Shown here one piece after another: positions 2,792 to 55,620 of a DNA stretch of 64,000 nt. Source of the DNA: Arabidopsis thaliana (Eukaryota > Streptophyta > Magnoliopsida > Brassicales > Brassicaceae); assembly GCF_000001735.4 (NCBI RefSeq), contig NC_003074.8, positions 21,893,261 to 21,957,260 on the forward strand, in the 5' to 3' direction. The position numbers and the translations under genes were made by a program. The first letter of the stretch is position 1, and every line of letters starts with the position of its first letter. The notes under the pieces were generated by a model. The model did no database searches. It had not been told where the DNA came from and saw only the letters and a program-made list of their open reading frames with translations.

Positions 2792-4527
2792 TTAAATCGA
2801 TGAGGAAGAGGGTAAAGTAACTGACAAGGTGAGGTTATCGGAGATTACTTGGACCTTGCACTTTGCTGAAGCTACTCCAGGAATTTCCTGAAGTTGCTTG
2901 GATACTTTAACAAGGTTATCGTCAACTGATGTATCGTAGTATATATTGAGCTGTTCAAGATGCGGCATTAACTCCAAGAAGTGCTTGGTTTGCTCTAATT
3001 CTGTCTTGTCATTAATTTCCCCAAACTTCAATATCTCTAGAACCTTCACCGGACTTGATGATAGGCAAGTATGAATATTCTCCGGAGGTTTGCACGGGCA
3101 CATGTCTCCACATCTATCCGTAGCTTTGTGGAGGAGTCCCTGAAACAACAAATGAAACGTTATGTATAGTTGTTTCTCACGACTGAAAAATGTGTCACAT
3201 GATGTCTTAAAAGGGTTTGATTTGTACTTGGAAGACGAGGGTTTTTAGATTTGGACAATTCTTGAGCAGATTCGGCAATGAATCCCATCCAACTTTTGTG
3301 TTACTTTCAATGGTTAAACGAGTCAGGTTGTTGAATATCGGTATTGCTTTGCAGCGGAATGTAAGTACCTGAAACAAAACCAAATCAATTATTGGAACAT
3401 CATCACTCATTTGCAATCATTGACACAAACCCTTAAGCAATAAGCCACCTAACAGAACCATTGTTTGTCGTCTTCTTTAATTTTCTAAGTAGCTAAAAAT
3501 ACTAAAAGAGTGTGAGAAGAGATGGGATTAATATACAGACCTCAACAGTGCTCGCATATAAGTAAAGAACCTGAACATTGCGTATTCCCATAAGTAGATC
3601 AGTTGCATCACCGACCATAGCATATTCTATAAGTGGGAAGGGGAAGCCAAAAGGGACTTGTATTGGATTTTCTGACTCTTCATATCCCACTCGAAGACCG
3701 AGCCTAGCTTCAACAAGCGAATCGAAATTCACTTTTTCATACTTTAATGCAACAGTATCGGTATATTCAAAGTAGACAAGAGCCGGATTATCAAATGTGA
3801 CACTCGGTGGTGGGTTGTTCCAACCCTCCTCGGTAAAAAACGTTAGTCTCTTGAGGGTTGGGATAGACGCAGAGCAAGACTCCCAAAAATTCCACACCAC
3901 ATCAATCATAACTAATTCCTCAAGCACATGACAACCAGAAAGAAGCTTAGCCAAACAAATTATCTGGTAATCTAACTCAACCGAATCAAGATAGAGAGTC
4001 TTGAGCTTTGGAAGGGAAACATCTCCCACGTCAATGACGAGACTTCCAAAGGCGAGACCATTTCTAGCCTCTATTCTCAGCCTAACCAGTGACTTGCTCA
4101 CAAATACTTTTGAAGGAAACAGATAAGTCGTATCTGATGCAATGCTTAAATCAAGTTCCGATACACTAAGCTCCAACGTATTCAATATCCAACGCGTGAC
4201 ACCAACACCGTCAACACCATTTCCACACTTTAAAGAGAATTTGTTTACATGGGAATTTCCCCTCAAAGCCAGTACTCTATCCACGAAATCCATAAAACTC
4301 GTATGAATCTCAGTCTCTTCTTGGTTACCCATATCAGGTTGCATACGTACCGGATCATCAAAATCAAGATTGGGTACGAAAGCAAAGAAATACCGCCATT
4401 TTCTCGAGAGAAGCGATGTTATAGCAGCTTCTTTAGTTGAAAGGAACGACAATATGTGGTAAATAAGAGCTTCTGGTAGACTGTTGATTATATCTTTGGG
4501 ACCAATATTCAACTTTTTCGAATTCAT
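2792..4527 (-). CDS. F-box/LRR/FBD protein (AT3G59230-like)
   Basis: Three coding exons on the reverse strand: 4527-3541, 3368-3228 and 3139-2792. All join in phase 0 and give 491 residues. The F-box is at about residues 12-55 (INSLPEALIYHILSFLSTKE..LSRKWR), followed by degenerate leucine-rich repeats to about residue 375. The C-terminal FBD domain includes SSPVKVLEILKFGE and ends near VQVISDN. Such proteins are substrate adaptors of SCF ubiquitin ligases through SKP1/ASK; the substrate is unknown. The ATG at 4527 (MNSKKL) was chosen because the upstream in-frame codons lie just behind a 5'-UTR intron (4557-4770) that is shared with the next paralogue. The 141-nt middle exon is identical in length in all copies in this array. 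Confidence 0.88.
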
Positions 4528-4556
4528 AGTGACAGATCTCAACAGTTACTTACAAC

Positions 4557-4770
4557 CTAAAAATTCACATGATGATCGTGTAAGTGATTTGATCCAATGA
4601 TATAAGAAGCTTAAAGTGATCACAACTAAAGGATCAAAAAAATTATTAAAAAAAAATCTAAGAATCAAACAGAAATACACAAAAGCAAATTCCTGTAGAC
4701 AAAAAAACAAAAAAAAAACTTTCGACATCAGAGGAGCATAAGATCGAAAGAAGAAATAGAAGAAACTCAC
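4557..4770 (-). other. 5'-UTR intron of the F-box gene
   Basis: On the reverse strand a donor CCCAA|GTGAG lies at 4771/4770 and an acceptor TTTTTAG|GTT at 4557/4556, 29 nt before the ATG. The next F-box gene has the same arrangement at 7147-7330, so the intron predates the duplication. Confidence 0.65.
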
Positions 4771-4834
4771 TTGGGAGCATAAAAATCAGACGAATATTGA
4801 GAACTCGATTGCGAGAGGGAAGTGAAAGAGAACA

Positions 4835-4915
4835 TTAGGGTTTTGGCTTGTGCCCTAGAGTGAGATGCAAATGTGGCGGGACGAGTGATTTATAAGTGAT
4901 CGAACATTAGGGTTT
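4835..4915 (-). promoter_or_regulatory. telo-box and GGCGGG promoter elements
   Basis: TTAGGGTTT occurs at 4835-4843 and 4907-4915 (AAACCCTAA on the gene strand), with GTGGCGGG at 4873-4880 between them. The same telo-box plus GGCGGG arrangement recurs upstream of other F-box copies, near 12,540-12,580, 12,745-12,781 and 14,998-15,034. Telo-boxes are known elements of genes expressed in dividing cells; the role here is inferred. Confidence 0.45.
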
Positions 4916-5102
4916 CGTTTTATAAAACCTCTTTAGTTAATTTCGGTTTTATACAAGAACCCAAAATTTACCAAAAAAAATATCTAAATCGATCGAATTT
5001 ATACAGAAAAGAGTTCGATTTCCTCCTTAATTTTTATATTTAGTACTTGCACGCAAATATATAGCATATCTTAACAAGTTGCTCACCGTGGAGCAAATTA
5101 AC

Positions 5103-5420
5103 AACTTGGAAGGCCTTGAGAGAACATGAAGTGTATACAACACAAAGAAAAGCGAAAATTGCATATTGAGAAGCAGAAAGAGGAAGACACATATTACATA
5201 ACAGAGACCAAAGTAAATAATTTTGAACCAAGAACTAAAACAAAAGCTATGTTATTGAAAAACTTGGAACCCTTGAGAAAACATCAAGTATATGCAACAC
5301 AAAAAGGTAAAAAAATGCATATTGAAAAGCCGAAGGAGTAAGACAAAGTGAAGAAGAGAGGCCAAACTAAATGCTTTAATTTCATGCTAAAAACTAGAAC
5401 AAAAGCTTTGCTAATCTTCT
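5103..5420. repeat. two-copy tandem duplication, about 158 bp per unit
   Basis: Unit 1 (about 5103-5260) and unit 2 (about 5261-5420) align along their length. AACTTGGA, CCTTGAGA, AACATNAAGT, GCATATTGA and AAAACAAAAGCT appear in the same order at a spacing of about 158 nt. The duplication sits directly downstream of the next F-box gene's stop codon, in its probable 3' UTR. It is diverged, so not very recent. Confidence 0.75.
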
Positions 5421-5421
5421 C

Positions 5422-7119
5422 TTAGATAAAATGAGGCTGATCTCCCATGTAGGGGATCACCATCCCATGTAGGGGATCACCAAAGAAAGGATAAGTTGGT
5501 GCTGGTGTGATGAAGTTATCACAGATGATACCACCATAGAAAGGATAAGTTGGTGCGTTATCACAGATTAGTTGGACACTACACTTGGATGAAGATACTC
5601 TAGGAACTAGCCAGTCAAGTTGACTTTTCACACCTTCACTAATTCGTGTATTGTAGTGCAATATCATTTGTTCAAGATTCGGCATTGTCTCCAGGAAATA
5701 CTTGACTAACTCCAGCTGCTTTTCCTCGTCACCAAAGTAAGAAGCAACTTCGCCAAACTTGAGTATCTTCAGAACCTTCACCGGACTTGATGATAGGCAA
5801 CTACGAATGTCCTTTGAAGACTTGCATAGACACCCGTCAGTGTCCTGACATTTACTTGTAGATCTGTGATGGAGTCCCTAAATCATAGATGAAACAACTT
5901 TAAACTCTAAATTTATTTGAAAATTTGTGTTAGCATGTGCACTAGTAAAAGGATATGTTTTGGTACTTTGAAGACAAGGGTTTCTAGATTTGGACAGTTC
6001 TTGAGTAGAGCCGGCAATGATTCCCATCCTACATCTTTGTCAGTCTCAACAGTTAAGTGGATCAGCTTTTTGAATACCGGTATTGGTGCACAACAGAAAG
6101 TAAGCACCTGAAAACATAAACCAAACACTAATTCAAATTATTCGGTTGTTTGTCTTGTTTTTAATTTCTAAGTAGCGAAAACAAACCTCAAGAGCGTTAG
6201 AAAACAATTGAAGGATCCGAACATTGCTTATCCCCATAAAAAGATTGGTTGCATTTACGACCAAATCTCCATAGCTTGCATGTGCACGCTGATGATGTCT
6301 CATTCGAAGACCGATACTAGCTTCAACAAGTGAGTCGAAATTCACTACTTCATACTTGTCCGCAACGAGATCAAAGTATTCAAAGTAGACAAGATTTGGC
6401 GTGTCAAATGAAATACTACCCGGACTTCTATCCCAGTCTGAACAATGTACCGTTAGTCTCTTGAGGGTTTTGGAAGACATAGAGCGGTTCCAATAACCAT
6501 CCCACCATAGATCACTCATAGTTAAATCCTCAAGGACTTGACATCCAGAAATGAGCTTGAGAAGGCAAGTATCACCGTCTCGAAACCAAATACTACTAAG
6601 ATCGAGAGTCTTAAGCTTTGGAAGAAAAACATCTTCCAAATCAATGATGGTACAATTTTCAGTTCGTATTCTCAGCTTAACAAGTGACTTGCTCACAAAG
6701 ACACTTGAAGGCATAGAACGATTTGAAACAAAATTACCGCCTAAATCAAGATCCGATACTCCACGTTCTATCACATTTGATATCCATCTAAAGATGCATT
6801 CTCGATCAATACCATTTCGACAGTTGAGTGAGAACCTAACTAGAGTGGAATTACCCTGCAAACCCAATACTCTATCCACGAAATCCATGAACTTTCTATG
6901 AACCTCATTCATGTAAACCAATGGACTTTGCATCCATACCGAATCATCGAAATCAAGAATTGGTGCAAAAGCAAAGAGATAACGCCATTTTTCGGAGAGA
7001 AGTGATGTTAAAGCAGCTTCTTTTGTGGGAACGAAGGACAGTAAGTGGCAAATAAGAGCTTCTGGTAGATCGCTGATTATATCTTTGCAACATATATCAT
7101 CCATCTTTGTTGAATTCAT
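5422..7119 (-). CDS. F-box/LRR/FBD protein (AT3G59240-like)
   Basis: Reverse-strand exons 7119-6187, 6107-5967 and 5877-5422 join in phase 0 and give 509 residues. The F-box is near residues 13-56 ([26 protein letters not shown]). LRR-like segments follow, then an FBD domain (SSPVKVLKILKFGE to about VQLICDN). It is a predicted SCF adaptor like its neighbours. After the FBD the frame runs on for about 40 extra residues built from two near-copies of CDNxxxxAPTYPFxG. These come from a short duplication in the DNA at about 5440-5575, which the sister genes lack. The ATG at 7119 (MNSTKM) lies behind a 5'-UTR intron at 7147-7330. Confidence 0.86.
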
Positions 7120-8040
7120 AGTGACAGATCTCAAACAGTTACGAACCTGATAAAATAACATGATATCGAGTAAACTATTAGATTAAAGAGTTTCAGATGC
7201 TTGACTAGTACAAAATTACGTACAAATCAAACAGAAACAAAACCAACAAAAGTAAAAATTTCTAGACAAACATTAAATTTGGACAATAAGGAATCACAAA
7301 ATAATCATCAGAAAAAAGCGGGAAGCTCACTTGGGAATTAGAACAGAGGGCATCAAAATTAAAAAGATTGATTGCGAGAGGGGCAGTGGAATAGTAAATT
7401 AGGGTTTCTGCAATCCTGGTCCAAAAATTCAGTTTTGTTTTTCGAACTTATAGTGTGCAATGATGAGGACGAATCAGAGAAGTTTTCGAGGGTTTTCACA
7501 TGTGATTATCATGTCACTTGCTCGGTGTATCCTAAGTTGTTACTGTTTATCCTCTCTTTAAAAAAATATTTATAGAAAAAACAAACTTTTTTTGGATTTT
7601 TTGTATAATAGATTTTGTTTTCTTAACATTGACAAAAAAAACATTGAAAAAAGATTTTGTTTTCTCGTTTACGAATATCAATCATCACCCCAAATCGATT
7701 ACTTAATTACCAATTATATTAATTTTGATGGACGTTAACCAATTAAATTAAATTAGATTAGATTAGATTTACGTATCAAAAGAAATAAAAAAAAAATATT
7801 TGAACCAGGTTTGATTGTTGTTTTGAGTAAGATTTTGGTTTTAGTTTTTTTCAAAAATCTATTCATGGTTTTGTAAAAGTTAGTTTCCCTAAAAAATAGA
7901 GAATTTAGTTTTTGAGAGATTTAACCCATGTTAAAGAAGAACCAAAACCCCTCGTATACTGGTTTCTTTTCAACGTGTGTTCTTACTTTCATTTTCAGAG
8001 TTCTATTTCTGATTTTTCAAAAAATATCTGTATCTTTTTG
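7120..8040. other. F-box promoter and AT-rich spacer
   Basis: The region holds the 5'-UTR intron (7147-7330) and the promoter of the preceding F-box gene, with AATTAGGGTTT near 7397-7407. An AT-rich stretch with many T- and A-runs follows to 8040. No gene or RNA was recognised in it. Confidence 0.55.
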
Positions 8041-8222
8041 TTAGCGTGTGGAATAAGTCAACCTCAAAGCCATTGAGGTTTCTGTTGATTGCAGGGGAAC
8101 CGATCGGTAAACGAACTTGTGGATCAGTATGGTCCGTTTGTGATGAATCCGCAGGTGGAGATTGATATGACTATTGAGGACATTCACAATGTTAAGGACG
8201 GGTTTGCAAATGGCCAAGTGTT
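8041..8222 (+). pseudogene. pirin 3'-end fragment
   Basis: The DNA from TTAGCGTGTGGAATAAGTC onwards matches the last exon of PRN1 and PRN3. It encodes [19 protein letters not shown], then after a frame change YGPFVMNPQVEIDMTIED and VKDGF. Around 8107-8118 the sequence is about 4 nt longer than in PRN1 (GGTAAACGAACTTGTGG against GGCGAGCCTGTGG), which breaks the frame. The terminal EMAKC is also disrupted. Everything upstream of this point, the whole N-terminal cupin domain, is absent. It is followed 240 nt later by a convergent F-box gene, as PRN1 is. It is clearly a dead remnant, not a gene. Confidence 0.88.
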
Positions 8223-8465
8223 GTTCTTTTATTTCTGGATAATAATAACAATTGCTCTGTTTCAGTCAATTATTATTATTATTTTTTGGTAAAACTGTTT
8301 CAGTAAATTAGTTCGACTTATTTTATTTTTGCAGTGGCTTGTATAACAAACAACCAAGCAAAAGATAATTAATCGAGCATCCCCAATAAAGATGAAAAAT
8401 CATCAAACAACACAAGTCACAAAAACTAAGAACAAAGGGGTAATTGAAGAGGAGAATCTTGTGGT

Positions 8466-10024
8466 TTAGCTAAGGACATCAGGGATTACTTGGATCTCGC
8501 AATTTGGTGAAGCTTCTCTAGCAAAGTTCTTAAGTTGGCTTGACACTTCTTCAATCAGATCACCACCAATTGGTGTATTGTAGTATACTGTCAGTTGTTC
8601 AAGATGCGGCATTGTCTCTAGGAAGATCTTGATCATCTCTATCTGATTGACTATACCATATTCACCAAATCTCAATATCTTTAAAACCTTCACTGGACTT
8701 GATGATAAGCAACTGGGAACCTCCCCTGAATATTTGCATAGGCAACCGTCAACATCCCCGCATTTTATTGTATACATGTGCAGGAGTCCCTGAATCATAT
8801 ATGAAACAACATCAAAATCTAGTTTGTTTTCAAAATATCGTGTTAAGAAATGCGAGGATATGTGTTGGTACTTCGAAGACAAGGGTTTCTAGAATTGGAC
8901 AGTTCTTGAGTAGAGCTGGCAATGATTCCCATCCTACGCTTTGGTTAGTCTTAATAGTTAACTGAATCAGGTTGTTGAATACCGGTATTGATTCACAGCA
9001 GAAAGTAAGAACCTGAAACAAAAACCAAAACAAGTACCATATCATCATCCATATCCAATCACTATCTAAAAAATAATCATTAATCAATTACGTACACTAA
9101 CATACCGCAAGACTGTTGGCAGATAAGCAAAGGATCTGAACATTGCATATTCCCATTAGAAAGTCTGTTGCATTGCCGACCAAAGCATCATAGCTTGCAT
9201 TTGCATCCTGATCACTTGTCATTGCAAGACCAATAGTGGCATCAACAAGCGAACTGAAATTCACTTTTGGATACTTTGCCGCAACATAATCGGAGTATTT
9301 CAAGTAGACAAGATTTGGTGTATCAAACAAAACACTATGCGGATTTTTATCATACGACTCTGTACACCATAGCGTTAGTCTCTTGAGGGTTTTGGAAGAC
9401 ACAGAGCGGTTCCAAACATTGGAGTAGACATTATTCAGAACTAATTCCTCAAGGACATGACAACCAGAAGTAAGTTTTTCGAAGCAATCTTCACCTTTTC
9501 CCAACATAATTGTATGAAGATAGAGAGACTTTAGCTTTGGGAGAAAAACATCGTCCACATCAATGCCACGAACATTTCCAGATTCTATTCTCAGCCTAAC
9601 CAGTGACTTGCTCACAAAGACCTTTGAAGGCAGACGAACCCCATTCACATTAACTTGCAAGTCAAGATCCAATACCCCACGCTCTAACACATTGAGTATC
9701 CAAGATGTGACATAGTCTGGAATAACACCATGTCCACACTTTAGAGAGAACTAGTTTATAGTAGATTTCCCTAGCAAATCCAGTACTCTACCTACAAAAT
9801 CCATAAAACTACTAAAAGTCACAGTGCTTTTCTCTGGTACTAACTGGTGGACGTAGACATACCGAGTCATCGAAAACAAGGTTTGGTCTGAAAGCAAAGA
9901 GATAGCGCCATCTCTTTGAGAGAACTGAGGTCAAAGCAGAATCTTCTATGGGAAGGAATGACAATATGTGGCAAATCAGAGCTTCTGGTAGATTGCTGAT
10001 TTTATCTTTTGGACCAATATCCAT
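8466..10024 (-). pseudogene. disrupted F-box/LRR/FBD gene (AT3G59250-like)
   Basis: The paralogous layout is present on the reverse strand: first exon from 10024 ([17 protein letters not shown]-box) down to 9107, then 9012-8872 and 8789-8466 with an FBD domain. Two lesions break exon 1. The frame that starts at 10024 runs into a stop near 9812 after [10 protein letters not shown], whereas homology to MDFVDR continues in another frame. That second frame carries an in-frame TAG at 9753-9751, where the paralogues have Lys in NKFSLKC. Downstream of 9750 the frame is open to the natural stop at 8466. A gene model could bypass both lesions with an unusual intron. The telo-box/GGCGGG promoter of the sister genes is not visible upstream of 10024. 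Confidence 0.75.
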
Positions 10025-10532
10025 CTTTTTGATAAATGAGAGTACTATATTGTGGCAAGACTACTTCCAAACGACGTCGTACAAAATGCTATTCAAACAA
10101 TATACTAGTCCATAATTTCCTTTTTGATAAATTGGCAACATTCAAAAATTAGATTTATGATAATTTGGTAACATGCGCTACAAACAACCGATTATGGAAA
10201 CTAGAATCGTATAAACTAATTCAATTTCCTAAAATTGGATATATTTCCGTTTTGGTGACCAAAAAAAAAAAAAAAGAAGATATATTTCCGTTTTTGTTTG
10301 TGGTTTTTGCTTGTCATAATTAAGACCGACCATACCTCGACCCTTTGCATTAATATAAAGGGCTTGATAATAAATCTGTATGCATGCCAATATCACATTA
10401 TCTCCATTAAAAGCAGCACTAAACGTTCTCTCTCTTTTTTTTGTTATTAGTTTTGAACTGCAGCGAACAGAGACCGAAGATATATATATATATACAATAA
10501 ACAGAGTTTTATCAAAATCAGAGATCATAGAT
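10025..10532. other. spacer between F-box pseudogene and PRN3
   Basis: Divergent upstream region. The PRN3 side carries a TATA-like TAATATAAAG at about 10351-10360 and an AT dinucleotide stretch near 10482-10495. The only other structure seen is the A-run flanked by short direct repeats at 10238-10294. Confidence 0.5.
10238..10294. repeat. 16-bp direct repeats flanking an A-run
   Basis: GATATATTTCCGTTTT occurs at 10238-10253 and 10279-10294. Between them are only GGTGACC, about 15 A residues and GAA. A poly-A tract bounded by a target-site-duplication-sized repeat resembles the footprint of an extremely 5'-truncated retroposon. A slippage duplication would look similar. Confidence 0.55.
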
Positions 10533-11928
10533 ATGTTATCGAGAAAGGTCATTAAAAAGATATATGCAGATTTTGAGAATGAAGGTTATGGTACTGTCGT
10601 TAGGCAAGGCATCACCAAGTAAGTTTTCTTCTTTTTTTCTTTCTCAATTTTCTCAGGAAAAATCCAATGACTTCACCTTCAAGTTTCATATAATTTTTCT
10701 TGTGGGGTTACTTCAGGAGTGACCATGAGTTATTGGACCCGTTCGTCTCGCTAGTTGAATTTTCCGGTAAAATATTTCCGGAATGTGTAAATTAAATATT
10801 TTGATTTTGATAATTACTTGGGATAATCTAAGCAGCAAATTATTGTTTTTTCAGTTTCACCTCCTGGTGGATTCAAAGATCATCCTCACAGAGGTCGTAT
10901 CACCTATTCATTCTTTCTTCATGTCCACAATGATTTCTCTGTTTTGTAATGCTTCTGATGTAGTTAAATCAACTGTGTACAGGTTTTGAAAGTGTTACAT
11001 ACATGTTCCAGGTGAGAAACAAGTCTTCATCCATGATTCGAGTCAATAATCAGCTTTTGGTTTTTGCTTACTCGGGTTGATTTAACTTGTATAGGGAGGC
11101 ATCATTCACCAAGACTGTAATGGTAATAAAGGTACAATCCATGAAGGAGATGTTCAGGTAAAACCCAAAAAGACATTTTAGAGCTAAAGACAATTGAATC
11201 CTCTTAAGCTTTCTTGTTTCATTCTTTTGATTCTGGTTCTATTGCAGTGGATGACAGCAGGAAGAGGAATCATTCATTCGGAAATGCCTGAAGAACAAGT
11301 CAACAAGGGGTTACAGCTTTGGATCAACCTCCCTTCTAGTGCCAAAATGTATAAGAAGATTCTTCACAAAGATTCATCTTTCTTAATTCACAGATTTTTT
11401 AAATGTTTATATAATACGTTTTCTTTGATTTTCGACAGGATCGAGCCTAAAAATATAGAAATCTCGAGTTCAGAGATACCTAGCGCAGATGACTATGGAG
11501 TAGAGGTCAAAGTCATTGCTGGAGAGTCAATGGGAGTCAAATCTCCTTTCTACACAAAAACACCAATCATGTTCCTAGACTTTACGCTCGATCCAAAAGC
11601 TCAAACCCACCAGGCCGTTCCAGAGTCATGGACCGCCTTTGCCTACATTGTAGAAGGCGATGAAGGCGTTTTTAGCTCCTCGGACTCTTCCACAGTACAA
11701 GCACATAATGTTGTGGTGTTTGGGACAGGGGATGAAGTTAGCGTGTGGAACACGTCAAACTCTAGGCCGTTGAGGTTCTTGTTGATTGCAGGGGAACCGA
11801 TAGGCGAGCCTGTGGTTCAGCATGGGCCATTTGTGATGAACTCACAGGATGAGATTGAAATGACAATTGGGGACTATCGTAATGGCATGAATGGCTTCGA
11901 AATGGCCAAGCATTGGAGGTCAGAGTGA
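10533..11928 (+). CDS. PRN3: pirin PRN3-like protein (AT3G59260)
   Basis: Seven exons: 10533-10618, 10717-10766, 10855-10893, 10983-11011, 11095-11157, 11248-11348 and 11439-11928. The total is 858 nt, or 285 residues. Iron-ligand motifs are intact: DHPHRGFE and GRGIIHSE. The ATG at 10533 (MLSRKVIKKI) was chosen by alignment to PRN1; upstream in-frame Met codons lie before the likely transcription start. The intron at 11012-11094 interrupts the coding sequence between Gln and Gly of the motif YMFQGG, and PRN1 has no intron at that site. Its C-terminus, MAKHWRSE, is longer than that of PRN1. The role is unproven; the fold implies an iron-dependent cupin with nuclear or cytosolic function. A convergent F-box relic follows. 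Confidence 0.9.
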
Positions 11929-12099
11929 AGAGTTTGAAGCAATAACCAGAGAGACAGTTATATTTAGGGTTTCTTATTTATTTCACATGGTTTTTTAATC
12001 TTACATTCTATATCATATCATTGTCACGTAATAAAAAAAAATGCTACGTTTTAGAAAATTGATTAACTATAGTTCAAGCTTATCACTTTCAGATTTAAA

Positions 12100-12475
12100 G
12101 GGTAAATATTTTTCACAAAAGAAAAATCACACTCATGGCTTAAAGATAGTAAAAAGAGGCATGAGTGAATCCTAAACAACTTGAGGAACCAGAAAAGTTC
12201 TTTCGAAATACAATAAAATCCATTACGTCGATGACTTGGAAACATGGTTAATTAAGTAGAGGACAAGCTGAGGTTATCAGAGATTACTTGAATCTTGCAC
12301 TTGGTTTTAAACCTTCTCTAGAAACCATCTGAGACCGGCTAAATACAGAGAAGATGAGCTTGAGTTAGAAATTCAACAAAAAGGCTTTAAAAAAAAGAAG
12401 ACACTAGATGAGAAGAAGATAGTAGAGAAACTTACTTGTGGGATAAAAGCAGATTGTATCTCCAAACCATACAAC
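12100..12475 (-). pseudogene. F-box gene relic with its centre deleted
   Basis: Plus-strand 12100-12350 aligns with 13210-13430, the 3' UTR and last codons of the next F-box gene. Shared blocks include ACACTCATGGC, AAAAAGAGGCAT, ACTTGAG, CAGAGATTACTTGAAT and CCTTCTCTAG. Plus-strand 12380-12475 then resembles the 5' end of such a gene, including a 5'-UTR splice donor (CTTACTTGTGGG, compare CTTACTTGGGG at 14885). Everything between, meaning the F-box, LRRs and most of the FBD, is missing, so the 3' end abuts the 5' leader. The remaining FBD codons are frame-shifted. It cannot encode a protein. Confidence 0.75.
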
Positions 12476-12477
12476 TT

Positions 12478-12885
12478 TTTAATATCAAGGAACAACCGGA
12501 GTCAGAGATTTATAGCAAAAGGAAATGAAAGTTGAAAATTAGGGTTTCTGCCAATTCTAGCCCTAAAAATTTGGCGGGTTCGTTGAGTGTTCCATAAGCT
12601 GGATTTTCTTTTCAAGTTTTGTCAAGTTCTCCGAGTTTGTTGATGATGATATTCTCTGTGATAAAGAAGGATTTGTTTCGTTTAATATCAAGGAACAACC
12701 TGAGTCAGAGATTTATAGCATAAGGGAAATGAAAGTTGAAAATTAGGCTTGTGGCAATTGTAACCCTAATAATTTGGCGGGTTCGTTGAGTTCCAAAAGC
12801 CGGATTTTTCTTTTCAAGTGTGGTCAAGTTCTCAGATTTTGTTGATGATGATATTCTCTGTGATAAAGGATGAGTTGTTTCAAGA
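12478..12885. repeat. tandem duplication of an F-box promoter, about 203 bp per unit
   Basis: Unit 1 starts at 12478 (TTTAATATCAAGGAACAACC) and unit 2 at 12681 with the same 20 bases. Both then run through GAGTCAGAGATTTATAGCA, GAAAGTTGAAAATTAGG, AATTTGGCGGGTTCGTTGAG, GTCAAGTTCTC and GATATTCTCTGTGATAAAG. Homology extends to about 12885. Each unit carries TTTGGCGGG (12570-12578 and 12773-12781). The unit matches the promoter of the downstream F-box gene at about 14920-15130. These are therefore two orphan promoter copies with no intact gene attached. Confidence 0.85.
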
Positions 12886-13332
12886 GTCGAATCAAGTTGT
12901 GGCAGTTTCGTCTGCGTGAAGCTAACTTTGACAACGATAGATGTGACTGACATCATTATAAATGGAAAGCTTTTTTTGATATGTTAAGAATCCAAAAACA
13001 TTATTAATGAACAAGCTTGATACCAAAAGATGTATTCCGATTGAAGCTTCTCTTTTTCGTCGTAGGAAACCAAAAAGACAAATCAAAGCTTATACAGAAA
13101 CAGAAGAACTGAAAATACTAAACGTTACGTTAACATTGTTGAGCTAACCGACACAAGCATAAATATAAAACATAAAGCCTCAGATACTATTACAAACTTA
13201 AGAGGCAGCCGAGACACACTCATGGCCTTGACATGGAAAAAAGAGGCATAAGTGAACCCTAAAGAACTTGAGAAACCTGAAATGTTCTTCCAACATACGA
13301 AGTCCATTTCGCCGATGAAAAGGGAACATGCT
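12886..13332. other. spacer with 3' UTR of the next F-box gene
   Basis: About 450 nt. The right half, from about 13210, is homologous to 12100-12260 and is the likely 3' UTR of the next gene. Nothing was recognised in the left half. Confidence 0.5.
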
Positions 13333-14612
13333 TTAAATAGAGGACAAGACAAGATTGTCAGAGATTACTTGAATTCTGCACTCGGTTAAACCTTCTCTAG
13401 GAACCATCTGAAATTGGCTTAATACTTCCTCCACATCTTCGTCAATTGATGTTTCGTAGTGAATTATGAGTTGTTCAAGATTAGGCATTGTCTCAAGGAA
13501 GTACTCGACTTGATCCATCATTTTGTCCATGTCCTCATCTTCATCGATATCTCCAAACTTCATTATCTTTAAGACCTTCACAGGACTTAATGATAGACAA
13601 GTGGGAATGTTCTCCTCCTCCCAAGGTTTGCACAGGCACTCGTCACTGCTTTGACATTTCATATCATATCTGTGGAGAAGTCCCTGAAACATAAAGGAAA
13701 CACATTTCAATATCGGCTTCTCTCTGTTTGAATAATGTATCAGCAAAGAATATAGTTAGTACTTCAAAGACAAGGGTTTCTAGGTTTGGACTGTTCTTGA
13801 GTAGAGCCGTCAATGATTCCCATCCCACAAGACGATCAGTCTTAACGGTTAGCTGAATCAGGTTGTTGAAAACCGGCAGTGGCTCACAGCAGAAACAGAG
13901 TACCTGAAACAGAGTATCACCTTTTAAATCCGAAGGAAAAAAAGAAGAAGATGAGTACGAAGTTGGAGACTACTGACCTCAAGAGTGTTGTAAGATAAGT
14001 AAAGGGACCTAACATTACAAATTCCAATGAAAAAAACAGTTGCATTACCAACCAACCCCTCATGCTGGATTGGATCATCCGCTGAAAATTTGGCCTTATG
14101 GATCTGATCATGTGTCATTTGAAGATCAAGACGAGCTTCAACAAGCGAATCAAAATTCGCTTTAAGATACCTGTCAGCAATGACATCAGAATATTCCAAG
14201 TACAAGAGATTAGGAGTACAAACGACACACTCTTGTGATTCTCAAAGAACATTTGATTAAAACGAAACGTTAGTCTCTTGAGGCTTGTGCTAGATACAGA
14301 ACAAGACTCCCAAAATTCCTGAACCATAGTATTGCACCCATCAATCGCTGTAGACATAGGCCAATCCCAACATGAAGAGATGTCTAGTGCAAGTTCTGAT
14401 ACACGACGTTTCAACACATTGGTTATCCAACCAATGACAGGAGCAGGTCCAACGTCATCTTTACACTTGATGGAGAATCTGTTCAAAGGAACATTCTTAC
14501 ACAAAGCCAATTTACCATCCACACGCTTTATGAAACGTTGGAGCATCTTAACCCTTTCTTGTTTTGTCACTCCATAATGCATACGCTTAGAGTCATCAAA
14601 ATCGAGATTCAT
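13333..14612 (-). pseudogene. truncated, frame-shifted F-box/LRR/FBD gene (AT3G59270-like)
   Basis: Homology to the array's F-box proteins begins only at NLDFDDSKRM, using the ATG at 14612. The F-box itself is gone. Exon 1 (about 14612-13978) has also lost some 70 residues of LRR, joining a SELALDISS-like segment directly to a QEFWESCS-like one. It carries a 1-nt deletion near 14219: the sequence reads TTTGTACTCC where paralogues read TTTGAYACNCC. The later exons are intact, 13903-13763 (141 nt as in the sisters) and 13683-13333 with a complete FBD (SSP-type block LSPVKVLKIMKFGD). A short FBD-like protein could still be produced from the 3' exons. I consider it a decaying copy. Confidence 0.72.
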
Positions 14613-16005
14613 CTTTTTCAAATGCAAATCACCACTTATAGCCTGAACAGAGCAAATGAGCTTAAGTAAGAAAATACAACAAAGGGATTCCAAAAATACA
14701 ACATTACCAATTTCAAAGCCGGTTTCAAGGTCTAAGCCTTTCACACAATCTTTAAGTTTCCATTTAGATTCTTAACAGAAAGAGAAATATTGATAACTAA
14801 GAATCAAAACATCAACACACATAGGCAAATGTTCTTCTTTTCGAAAGTTTTTAAACTAGAGACACTACTTGAGAAGAGGAGAAGCTTACTTGGGGTGTGA
14901 AGCAGAGATCATTATACAACTGTTGAGTTTTCAATGTACTTTCAAAGAAACCGGATTCAGAGGTTTTATAGCCAAAGTGAAGTGAAAGTTGTAGATTAGG
15001 GTTTTGGTAACTGTAGCCCTTGTAATTTGGCGGGAGGGGTTAGTTCCAATGTTGGATTTTCTTTTTGTGTGTTGTCAAGTCCTGAGATTTTGGAGATCTC
15101 TGTGATAACCAAGGAGGAATTTTTCACAAGAGTCTAATCAAGTAATATCAGTTTCATATCGTCTGTCTTCTCTATCCAATTTTTTGAATTTTAACCTTTT
15201 AATATAATTTGAGACGAAATTGCGTCTGTATGACGTCAACCAAATTACCATATTGTTCATGCTAAAGACAGACAACTTCTCATCTAAACTCTTTGATTAT
15301 TTTCATGCCTTATCTCGAATTCATACAACTAAAGCAGTCTTTGATATCTGTTGGAATAAAGAAAAGTTGTATGAGGAGATTAAGAAGTGAACCAAATCAG
15401 GATCGTCACATTTCACTCAACGTCTATAAAACTCTCTCAAGACGAACCACTTCGCTTCTACTTCAACAGGCCTACTCATCTCCTTTCATGTTTTCATCGT
15501 AGCTTCTTCAATTCGGATTGCCAAAATTGGGTCGTTATTTATCTGTGATTGTGCATAGAATTTTATTTTGTATAGATCCACCCTTACGAAATGAGACTCG
15601 GGCTACCCAAAACATGATCAAGTCACACTTAGAGATCTAGATTTTACCTATTACACAAAAACCACTCAAATAACGAAGTTTTTTATTATACATTATACAT
15701 TACAGAGTGTAGATGATCAGTTTGGAATCTGAATCAAAAACAGGAAGGATAGCTTTAAAAGAGTCTTCTCTCAGGAGAGAAGGATAAAACATACACAAAC
15801 AGAACAATCCTTTCTAGTTTTCAGAGGTTCTTTGACACTGATCAACTGATCAGAGCAAACCTGTCTTAGTTATTACTAATTTAATGTGTGAAGAAAACTA
15901 TGGCCGTTTTGTAAGTTCCACATCATCTCAAAGAAACCATGAACTCGTCTTGATTTTACATTAAGAGCAAGAATTTTGAGTCTGGAAAACAAAAAGAGTA
16001 AGGTC
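14613..16005. other. decayed F-box 5' region, promoter and spacer
   Basis: The left part holds the 5' leader of the F-box copy, with a donor at 14889/14890, and its promoter, with a telo-box near 14998 and TTTGGCGGG at 15026-15034. From about 15150 to 15680 no feature is recognised. From about 15690 to 16005 is the probable 3' UTR of PAM16. Confidence 0.5.
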
Positions 16006-50906: not shown

Positions 50907-52521
50907 ATGGAGTCTTCGGTTTTCGACTTTGGATCGGAGTCGGGGAACATGAATTTCGACGAGACCGTGCCACTGAGCCAACGATTGGAGTGGTCAGACG
51001 TGGTCCCATTGACTCAGGACGATGGTCCGAATCCAGTGGTGCCAATTGCCTACAAGGAAGAGTTCCGCGAGACTATGGATTACTTCCGTGCGATTTACTT
51101 TTCCGACGAGCGATCTCCTCGCGCACTACGACTCACGGAAGAAACCCTCCTCTTAAACTCCGGCAACTACACAGTAATCAATCTTATAATTCATATAATC
51201 AACAACTATCTGAACTCTTATGGTTTTGAAATTTGATGGATTTTAGTCTTTTATTGGTCCTTGTTGCTTCAATTTTTAGTCTTACCGATATTTTTGTTTA
51301 CCTTTGAAGGTGTGGCATTTCAGGCGCCTAGTACTCGAGGCCCTTAATCACGACTTGTTTGAAGAACTCGAGTTCATCGAACGCATTGCTGAGGATAACT
51401 CTAAGAACTACCAACTGTGGTAAAGTTCATACCTTTTCACACCTTGTTTGATCTATGTGCTTTTGATCATGAAAGTCTATGAGTGAGTTATACTTTTGAA
51501 AATTGTCTGATGAATAATTTTGAATCAATAAATGTATATTCTACTTCTCCATAGATGAAAGTTTGTTCTTGTACACATTGTTAAGTTCATAGTGTCTCAT
51601 ATCTGCTGATTATACAACGTTAAAACCCTTGGTTGTTTGTTTTGAGTTTGATGGTCCATGCTTCTGCTCTATGTTTTCCTTTTCTCTAGGCATCATCGGC
51701 GATGGGTTGCAGAGAAACTGGGTCCTGATGTTGCAGGGAGAGAACTTGAATTTACCCGTAGAGTACTTTCACTTGATGCCAAACATTATCATGCTTGGTC
51801 ACATAGGCAGGTTTGCGATCTCAAACCTTGTTAAAGCATTCACTTGGGGTATCATTGCATATCTTTTTGTTTGATAATATGGAAACAATCTGCAGTGGAC
51901 ACTACGGGCATTAGGAGGATGGGAAGATGAGCTCGATTACTGTCACGAGCTCCTTGAAGCTGACGTCTTTAACAATTCCGCCTGGAATCAGGTAACTTGA
52001 TCGTTGATACACATACGAAATTCTGTATCTCTAATCTATCAATTGCCGATTCTGTCACCTATTTGTATAATCTCATTCCCTTAATCTGACAGAGGTATTA
52101 TGTCATCACCCAATCTCCTTTGTTGGGAGGCCTAGAAGCCATGAGAGAATCTGAAGTAAGCTACACAATCAAAGCCATTTTAACCAATCCTGCAAACGAG
52201 AGCTCATGGCGATACCTAAAAGCTCTTTACAAAGACGACAAAGAATCCTGGATTAGTGATCCAAGTGTTTCCTCAGTCTGTTTGAATGTTCTATCCCGCA
52301 CAGATTGCTTCCATGGATTCGCTCTGAGCACCCTTTTGGATCTTCTATGTGATGGACTGAGACCAACCAACGAGCATAAAGACTCAGTGAGAGCTCTAGC
52401 TAATGAAGAACCAGAGACTAACTTGGCCAATTTGGTGTGTACTATTCTTGGTCGTGTAGATCCTGTAAGAGCTAACTATTGGGCATGGAGGAAGAGCAAG
52501 ATTACAGTGGCAGCAATTTGA
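50907..52521 (+). CDS. FTA: protein farnesyltransferase/GGTase-I alpha subunit FTA (AT3G59380)
   Basis: Five exons: 50907/50949-51173, 51310-51419, 51690-51810, 51896-51991 and 52093-52521. From the ATG at 50949 ([20 protein letters not shown]) they give 981 nt, or 326 residues, the known length. An upstream in-frame ATG at 50907 would add [18 protein letters not shown] helical-pair repeats are clear: [48 protein letters not shown] and NNSAWNQRYYV. FTA pairs with the ERA1 beta subunit for farnesylation or with GGB for geranylgeranylation of CaaX proteins in the cytosol. Loss gives the pluripetala (plp) phenotype with altered ABA response and large meristems. Confidence 0.95.
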
Positions 52522-52899: not shown

Positions 52900-54906
52900 A
52901 TGTCCAAATCTGGGTTTAGTCTGCTGTTCCTCGTTCTTCTACTTATCATGGGTTTCTTATTTCCGTTGAGAGTTTCTGCAATTAGGTGATTAATTTTGGG
53001 TAACAACCATTGCTTCTATGAATTGTCCCGCTTAGTTTCATTTCCTTGAGATTTTCGAATGAATTTGCAGGAAGGATATCGGATTTTTGGAAGAGCGGAG
53101 TTGCAGAACAACTGTCCAAGGAAGATACTTGATCTCCGATGATGAAGGTTAGCGATTTCCACTCTTGGAAAGATTCACCTTTTTGAACATTTTGAATCTC
53201 TTTCGACTTAGATTTGGTGATCCATGAATGGTTTGTTGTTGCAACTTGCAGGCAATGTGTGTGATGCTTTGTCATTGGAATCTCGAACTCGTTGTTGTCC
53301 ATGGAAAGGAGAAAGATTCTCTTGTCAGTGAGTCAATTTTTAAGACGATCATAGCCTTTGATCACGGACTTATAGGTTTCATTAAAACTGATGTGTTCTT
53401 AATCAGACTTCTTTGTTTTGTGGTTTCGCTTGAAGTGGATGCAACATACTTTCACAATGCTGCAACTCTTATGAATTTTGCGTTTCTTGCTGCTTGAATC
53501 CGTCTCAGGTATTCAATGGAATCTTTGATTTTTTTTCCAGATTTTTCTCTGTTCTCGCTTCATCTTTTTTTTTTTGCTTATGAGCACTTATCTTCTGCAG
53601 ACGCTTCTTGAGAAGGTGGTTAAGGTCAAAGTTGCAAAGCCGGCTACATCAGGTAACTTGTCGTTTTACAGCAGCTTCGATTCTTAAACCACCGCATAAA
53701 AGTGTTTGCATTTGCAAGATGGCCAATTTTTCCTCTTTGGCAGGGACTTACAAGAGTGTATTTGATTTTTGTGCCGGGAGATGCCGGCATAACTCTGAGA
53801 GTGTGGTAAGCGATATACTGTTATTGTTTCACCTAAAAAGGCTTTGATTGTTCTTTTCCTGGCATGTTTCTTGAGGTTATGTCATGAATTGGATCAATGT
53901 AGTGTGGAAGTTAAGGTTTTATCTGAAAATGATGGAATGCTCTTGAAAGTCTAATGAAACTGGATAATCAATACGGATAGCTCTAAACAGTGAGATGTAT
54001 ATTTTGTTTCCTTAACGTCCAGGTTCACGAAAATGCTTACCACAGCGAGTTTCACCATTGTTTTTCTCTGACATCAAATGCTTCAGGTTAACCTCAATAG
54101 CTTACTTTTTTTCTTTTGCATATCGTTTAAATGTCGAAATACCCTATCACATGCATCAAATAATTGAAAACAGGTGCTAATCTTACACAAGTTGAAACAA
54201 GACTTCTTGGTATTGACGTTATTGTCGGAAGGTAACACCCTTCACTGCTCTAGAGGTTTGAATTGTATATGCTCTTGTGGAGACCATACTCTTAGACTCT
54301 TCTCTATTGGATTGGTTTCACAGTCAAGGAGATTCATGCGATGCAGTTTGCAAATCACGTGGACAATTGTGTGTGATGAATAAACTCTCACTTCTAAACC
54401 AGTGTGACGTGTAAGTCTCTTCTTAAGCAACTATTTTACCAGAGTCAATCTTTTAAGCCAACTATCAAGTCATGTTTCAGAGATTTCTATATAGAATAGA
54501 TTAAAAACTGGCAATTTTGTTGGTGTTCACATAGTTCTTTCTCTTCTTCTTTGTTTGCTTAGTATGAAAAGATACATGAACTGCAAAGGGTCGTGTTTAG
54601 CAAGTGCCGGGGCTGACCAACCTGCTGAAGTTGTCGAAGATGCGCCGAGAGATTTGGTATTTCATCTTTTTTTTTTTCTCTTTTATGCGCCCTTTAAGTT
54701 CCTGAATCCTCAGTGAAATAATTTATTTACATTGCTTCTCCTGACTCAATTTTTGAATCTTGTTCATAAACTGAGTGATTCCATATGTGTGTGTTTATTT
54801 TCTTGGTCTGCAGTATCCAGGCGCGTGTTTGTATACCCGGACACAATCATTGCTTTCCTGTGACGGTTCACACCAACACACCCGACGACTCTGCCCATGT
54901 GCCTAG
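52900..54906 (+). CDS. cysteine-rich secretory-pathway protein, plant homologue of SPRING/C12orf49 (AT3G59390)
   Basis: Eleven short exons: 52900-52985, 53071-53147, 53252-53327, 53436-53508, 53601-53652, 53744-53805, 54023-54086, 54174-54231, 54324-54410, 54563-54656 and 54814-54906. The total is 822 nt, or 273 residues, with all junctions GT-AG and in phase. Residues 7-25 (SLLFLVLLLIMGFLFPLRV) form one hydrophobic signal-anchor. The rest has many cysteines: NVCD, TRCCPW, then CNILSQCCNSYEFCVSCCLNP, FDFCAGRCRHNS, GDSCDAVCKSRGQLC, YMNCKGSC, YPGACLY and CPCA. The CNxxSQCCNSYExCVSCC block is the signature I know from C12orf49/SPRING (UPF0454), a Golgi protein that licenses site-1 protease in animals. 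The plant function is inference. Confidence 0.82.
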
Positions 54907-55620
54907 AAGCTAGTCAGTATTAAGACTTATGCCATACTTTTTTCCTCCTTATTGTAGCAGTTTTAGAATGCTCTGATCATGTAATTTTCTCATGGTGAAA
55001 GAACACATTGTTGACATATACATGCACGGTTCAATATATTATAGTTTAACTACTAAAACGTTTATTCATTGAATACCACAGAATGAGAGAAAAAGCATCT
55101 GTCCACATCGTGTAACGTGTATGGCCTACACTGAGAATTAACTACAAGGCTACAGAGGCAGCAACGTATTCATTAGATCTTTGTCACACATTGCTCATTA
55201 TATGAGGTGCAGCTTTCTTGAACAGAGCCAAAATCCCAACTTTGTATTTATCCTTAATCTCTCTTTCACCAAATCACCTAAGAGGACAGCAACAACAACA
55301 CAAGAGAAGGCCTTAAGAACCAGCTGGTGGAGTTCGAATTGTTGTTTCAGATTTGATCTGTCCAAGAGTAACTACATTAGTTTCATGTTCTTAAGATCTG
55401 CAGAACTTATGAATTTCACATTGATCAACCAAGAAAGAGTCATGTTTTTTTTTATTCATTAACTAATGATCTGGCTTTGTTCATACATCCATAATCACAA
55501 TGGAACTGACATTGAAGAGAAATCCGATTTAATTAATGATATGATTACAGAGATTTGTTTATACTTTCACAATATCAGAAAATCAATATTAAAAAAAAAA
55601 AAAAAAGAAGGAGAAAGACA
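54907..55620. other. 3' UTRs between convergent genes
   Basis: About 710 nt between two stop codons. No gene recognised. The + frame at 55181-55462 lacks homology and is probably chance. Confidence 0.5.

Follow-up and report, generated by a model that had tools for sequence, protein, structure and literature searches.

SPRING was found as a factor required for the cleavage of SREBP by site-1 protease (S1P), and plants have S1P but are not known to have SREBP. The locus at positions 52900..54906 raises the question of whether a plant gene encodes a SPRING, and what such a protein would do to S1P. It lies on the plus strand of the window, the whole stretch of 64,000 nucleotides that was analyzed (contig C3, 21,893,261-21,957,260), and the genome searched comprises 119.66 Mb in 7 contigs. 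The gene is presumably AT3G59390; a literature search under that name found no paper, and a search for plant SPRING found none either, within a coverage that leaves most subscription journals outside. In a word search, the main text of the SPRING papers PMC11231238, PMC12419022, PMC7048761 and PMC8019017 contained no word beginning with "plant".

An earlier note on this DNA had assembled eleven exons into a Cys-rich protein of 273 residues, and this model was confirmed. The joined coding exons (exon 1, 52900-52985; exon 2, 53071-53147; exon 3, 53252-53327; exon 4, 53436-53508; exon 5, 53601-53652; exon 6, 53744-53805; exon 7, 54023-54086; exon 8, 54174-54231; exon 9, 54324-54410; exon 10, 54563-54656; exon 11, 54814-54906) add up to 822 bases in a single open frame that encodes 273 residues and a stop, with GT-AG borders in 10/10 introns (85-217 bases) and 24 cysteines in the product. 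Two N-glycan sequons are present, at residues 161 and 166. The 18-residue motif CNILSQCCNSYEFCVSCC, quoted in the note and carried by exon 4, gave a single match in a search of the genome, at this gene. The protein had also been described as signal-anchored, a claim that stands as far as the N-terminal hydrophobic stretch is concerned (residues 1-29, encoded by exon 1), because mean hydropathy exceeded 1.6 only in the 19-residue segments starting at residues 1-11. V-S-A at residues 25-27 fits the usual -3/-1 rule for signal peptide cleavage, and the segment may be either an uncleaved anchor or a cleaved signal peptide.

The profile search against the C12orf49/SPRING family that had been proposed as a check gave a match to PF10218 (SPRING1) with E=1.7e-37 and a score of 128.8 bits, which exceeds the cut-off of 22, and it covered profile positions 3-131 of 131. 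The human SPRING chain of structure 8UW8 (8uw8_B) also matched the plant protein (E=1.8e-17), with 45 of 117 aligned residues identical. Because the Pfam score is much higher than the pairwise score to human SPRING, plant members are probably already within the family model. Based on both matches and on the alignment of the cysteines, the CREST/SPRING1 domain was placed at residues 37-156 (53093..54064, plus strand), encoded by exons 2-7. Judged by its sequence, the plant protein is a member of the SPRING/C12orf49 family, and the UPF0454/C12orf49 assignment of the earlier note was right.

The plant protein shares with human SPRING the N-terminal hydrophobic segment, 14 of the 15 CREST cysteines and the S1P-contact residues R174 and V180, which correspond to plant R136 and V142. 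Human R174 lies at the centre of the interface. In contrast, the human contact residue R95 is replaced by Ala (A60), so that two of the three mutated SPRING contacts are preserved, and C115 is replaced by Ser78, within the stretch of residues 55-104 (window positions 53252-53508). According to passages of PMC11231238, the 15 cysteines of human SPRING form seven predicted disulfides and leave at least one cysteine unpaired; since C115 is the sole CREST cysteine missing in the plant protein, the plant sequence predicts that C115 is likely the unpaired cysteine of human SPRING. The two proteins differ also in the stem, which is long in human SPRING and contains an S1P cleavage site at R45, whose role is called mysterious in a passage of PMC11231238, whereas only about 12 residues separate residue 27 from C40 in the plant protein. 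No S1P motif (R-x-[LIV]-z or R-x-x-[LK]) was matched between the plant hydrophobic segment and C40. We regard the R45 stem site as a human-type trait and did not count it as defining the SPRING family. A special conservation of the S1P-facing parts of CREST was considered and rejected: 38 of 90 residues were identical in the modelled S1P-facing parts and 6 of 24 in the insert unresolved in the structure, a difference that is not significant (Fisher p=0.16) and shrinks further when the cysteines are left out (25/76 versus 6/24, p=0.61).

The protein is more than a plain SPRING. The earlier note overlooked a second domain of ten cysteines at residues 176-272 (54209..54900, plus strand), encoded by exons 8-11 and resembling the C-terminal domain of the glycosyltransferase GnT-V/MGAT5 (GT18; 5ZIB, 6YJQ). 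Human SPRING has no such domain of about 97 residues: it is 205 residues long according to a passage of PMC7048761, and because the plant-human alignment ends at human residue 195, there is no room in it for an MGAT5-type tail. PF15024 (Glyco_transf_18) matched the whole plant protein below its cut-off of 28 bits (24.5 bits, E=1.3e-5) and the 116-residue C-terminal piece alone above it (32.7 bits, E=4.1e-8, profile positions 470-557 of 557), the matched residues being 177-272. In a PDB search, MGAT5 chains matched the whole protein with E=0.0037-0.005. With the tail piece, five MGAT5 sequences were the only PDB matches at E<1 (E=0.001-0.0013; next 1.1), and none of nine cysteine-fixed shuffles of the tail gave a Pfam match up to E=10. 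A DUF1623 match of the tail piece (E=0.36, Pfam) was set aside as meaningless. The fusion of SPRING with this tail is known here from the gene model of a single species.

Residues 176-272 share 27 of 89 aligned residues with MGAT5, including C-P-C, and plant cysteines match all eight MGAT5 cysteines of the aligned stretch in an alignment that was optimised. The two other tail cysteines, C210 and C223, have no such partner, and the plant protein ends one residue past C-P-C. According to passages of PMC6107550, the C-terminal domain of GnT-V (G628-L741) contains five disulfides and is separate from the two Rossmann domains; the ten cysteines of the plant tail would suffice for five. With the whole protein, the PF15024 match is limited to profile positions 469-557 of 557, and the catalytic GT-B part of GT18 is not matched. 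The tail is, on this alignment, homologous to the GnT-V/MGAT5 C-terminal domain without the catalytic part. A PF15024 search of the plant genome itself gave no match up to E=1; because the controls gave no match either, and the tail of plant SPRING was also unmatched exon by exon, this result does not show that other GT18 genes are absent.

With the whole protein as query, 13 exon-level matches were found among the best candidates in the genome, 11 of them in the SPRING-like gene and the remaining 2 together at a second place, and the search yielded one complete SPRING-like gene. The sequence at this second place (C3 13.4849-13.4854 Mb; L015:2424-2896, minus strand) duplicates the 3' part of the gene (window positions 54421-54908, intron included), is 84% identical to it over 490 alignment columns and contains a stop codon; it is a truncated pseudogene fragment far from its parent. 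In viral contigs, six pattern stretches were inspected for related loci and none was confirmed, and a degenerate DNA pattern for CC..YE.CV.CC had no match there. The single match of this pattern in genome contigs, from Rhodobacteraceae, was rejected as chance, because stops interrupt its frame, even within the motif itself; it runs antisense within a 235-residue ORF that by eye looks transposase-like.

The earlier note had stated that plants have S1P, and an S1P with its pro-domain was located in the same genome. PF23090, an S1P-specific family, pointed to one S1P place, on contig C5 (6639800-6649700), with two adjoining exon matches. Eight exons yielded a plant S1P of 990 residues, the last membrane-anchor exons being left out, which matched human S1P with E=2.5e-288 and contains the MBTP1_N, Peptidase_S8, MBTPS1_3rd and MBTPS1_4th domains in the human order, pro-domain included. 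The catalytic triad of human S1P (D218, H249, S414) and N338 are preserved, as are Q282, S307, I308, P317, W556 and Y561 and the N515 glycan site with its sequon (N-T-T), while N328 is replaced by Ser; thus, four of the five interface and glycan residues checked (P317, W556, N515, Y561) are unchanged. Identity to human S1P amounts to 200/292 residues in the protease part, 59/138 in the P-like part and 37/135 in residues 52-186, levels at which single preserved residues are modest evidence only. At the B site, R134 is preserved and the plant enzyme has R-V-L-L in place of the human R-S-L-K; R-V-L-L fits the S1P motif, so that self-cleavage at this site may be conserved. At the alternative B' site, Phe takes the place of human R130. 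Passages of PMC11231238 report that in human cells an N328 Ala mutant of S1P does not pull SPRING down and that the N515 glycan appears, in the cryo-EM map, to contact SPRING by its end. Among the contact residues mutated in that study, 2 of 6 differ in the plant proteins (SPRING R95 and S1P N328).

According to the same paper, human SPRING dislodges the A-domain, which is inhibitory, and stabilizes N338 and the GIFT part of S1P. As to the plant enzyme, passages of PMC6713707 describe the S1P lineage (named SBT7 there) throughout Archaeplastida and its cleavage of bZIP28 and bZIP17, and passages of PMC7162652 place its action on CLEL6 in the cis-Golgi. The reading that we favor, at a probability of roughly three in four, is that plant SPRING displaces the A pro-domain of S1P (SBT6.1) and thereby licenses the protease, and that it carries an added tail. 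The N-terminal hydrophobic segment would direct plant SPRING into the secretory pathway. Once in the Golgi, the CREST domain, whose cysteines suffice for seven disulfides, would bind mature S1P along a ridge to which the protease, P-like and GIFT parts contribute. The inhibitory A pro-domain, already cleaved, would be pushed off, and the freed S1P would cut bZIP17, bZIP28, CLEL and other precursors. The MGAT5-type tail would probably serve in folding, in retention or in additional docking. We infer the Golgi site, the binding of S1P, the displacement of the pro-domain, the need of the plant for SPRING and the role of its tail. The proposal of the earlier note that SPRING licenses plant S1P is made plausible by the presence of an S1P with pro-domain and by the preservation of most checked contacts. 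Against it stand the changes at SPRING R95 and at S1P N328 and R130, the S1P-facing identity that does not differ significantly from that of the insert, and a stem in which no S1P motif was matched.

The protein might instead be a true SPRING by descent that serves another luminal partner, or that only aids the folding or export of S1P, in which case plant S1P would mature without it. The two altered contact residues of the six, the identity of S1P-facing residues that does not rise significantly above that of the unresolved insert, and the extra domain speak for this alternative; moreover, passages of PMC7162652 state that tomato SBT3 requires acid pH for the cleavage of its pro-domain and for its activation, and a pH trigger might by extension operate on plant S1P. 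Nevertheless, plant S1P retains the human domain order, including the very pro-domain that SPRING displaces, and P317, W556, N515 and Y561 of S1P and R174 of SPRING are preserved, so we hold this alternative to be unlikely, although by no means negligible. A different doubt concerns the tail, which might be foreign, two adjoining genes having been fused in the model, or might resemble MGAT5 by a coincidence of cysteine-rich sequences. The whole-protein scores leave room for such an artefact, both the PF15024 score under the cut-off and the MGAT5 chain values. Yet the tail alone exceeds that cut-off, finds MGAT5 sequences as its sole PDB matches at E<1 and loses every Pfam match on cysteine-fixed shuffling, and the open frame runs across an 87-base GT-AG intron between exons 7 and 8, which makes an artefact very improbable.

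If the homology of the tail to a Golgi glycosyltransferase is given full weight, the protein could be mainly a factor linked to glycans, such as a chaperone or a retention subunit that serves Golgi glycosylation, and be SPRING-like in fold only. The confinement of the PF15024 match to the last positions of the profile argues against this idea, as does the location, in passages of PMC6107550, of the catalytic and acceptor residues of GnT-V (E297, D378, F380, W401 and K554) outside G628-L741; with a SPRING match far stronger than the PF15024 match, we find it scarcely credible. A more elaborate form of the S1P-licensing reading, which we consider a distinctly long shot, would make the protein a two-domain S1P activator in which CREST displaces the pro-domain and the tail docks on S1P or on the N-glycan equivalent to that at N515, so that activation would be tied to arrival in the Golgi and to the state of the glycan. 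In such a complex, a cut by S1P at the linker motif R173-L-L-G, which fits the loose S1P rule, could release the tail and end the association; because the loose motif had 3 matches after residue 27 against a mean of 1.9 in 2000 shuffles, with at least 3 in 31% of them, matches of this kind are expected by chance and this cleavage site is speculation only.

Returning to the favored reading, in which plant SPRING licenses S1P, one genome encodes both SPRING and an S1P complete with pro-domain. This suggests that a helper was releasing the S1P pro-domain before the sterol pathway arose, and hence that the licensing of S1P by SPRING may predate SREBP/sterol (cholesterol) control. Plant SPRING would then be a candidate answer to how S1P is activated for the processing of peptide hormones and in ER and salt stress. 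The tail fused to SPRING suggests, in turn, that an MGAT5-type C-terminal domain can exist apart from a transferase.

As regards the surroundings of the gene, an ORF upstream of it, ending at position 52521, showed a weak match to PPTA (protein prenyltransferase alpha repeat; E=0.0012) that lies below the cut-off, and the downstream neighbour, on the minus strand, is a GUN4-like gene (E=1.4e-50). Elsewhere in the window, plus-strand ORFs at 1855-2241 and 11194-11928 look cupin-like by eye, and a cluster of several minus-strand ORFs with F-box-like sequence, again by eye, occupies positions 3502-14744.
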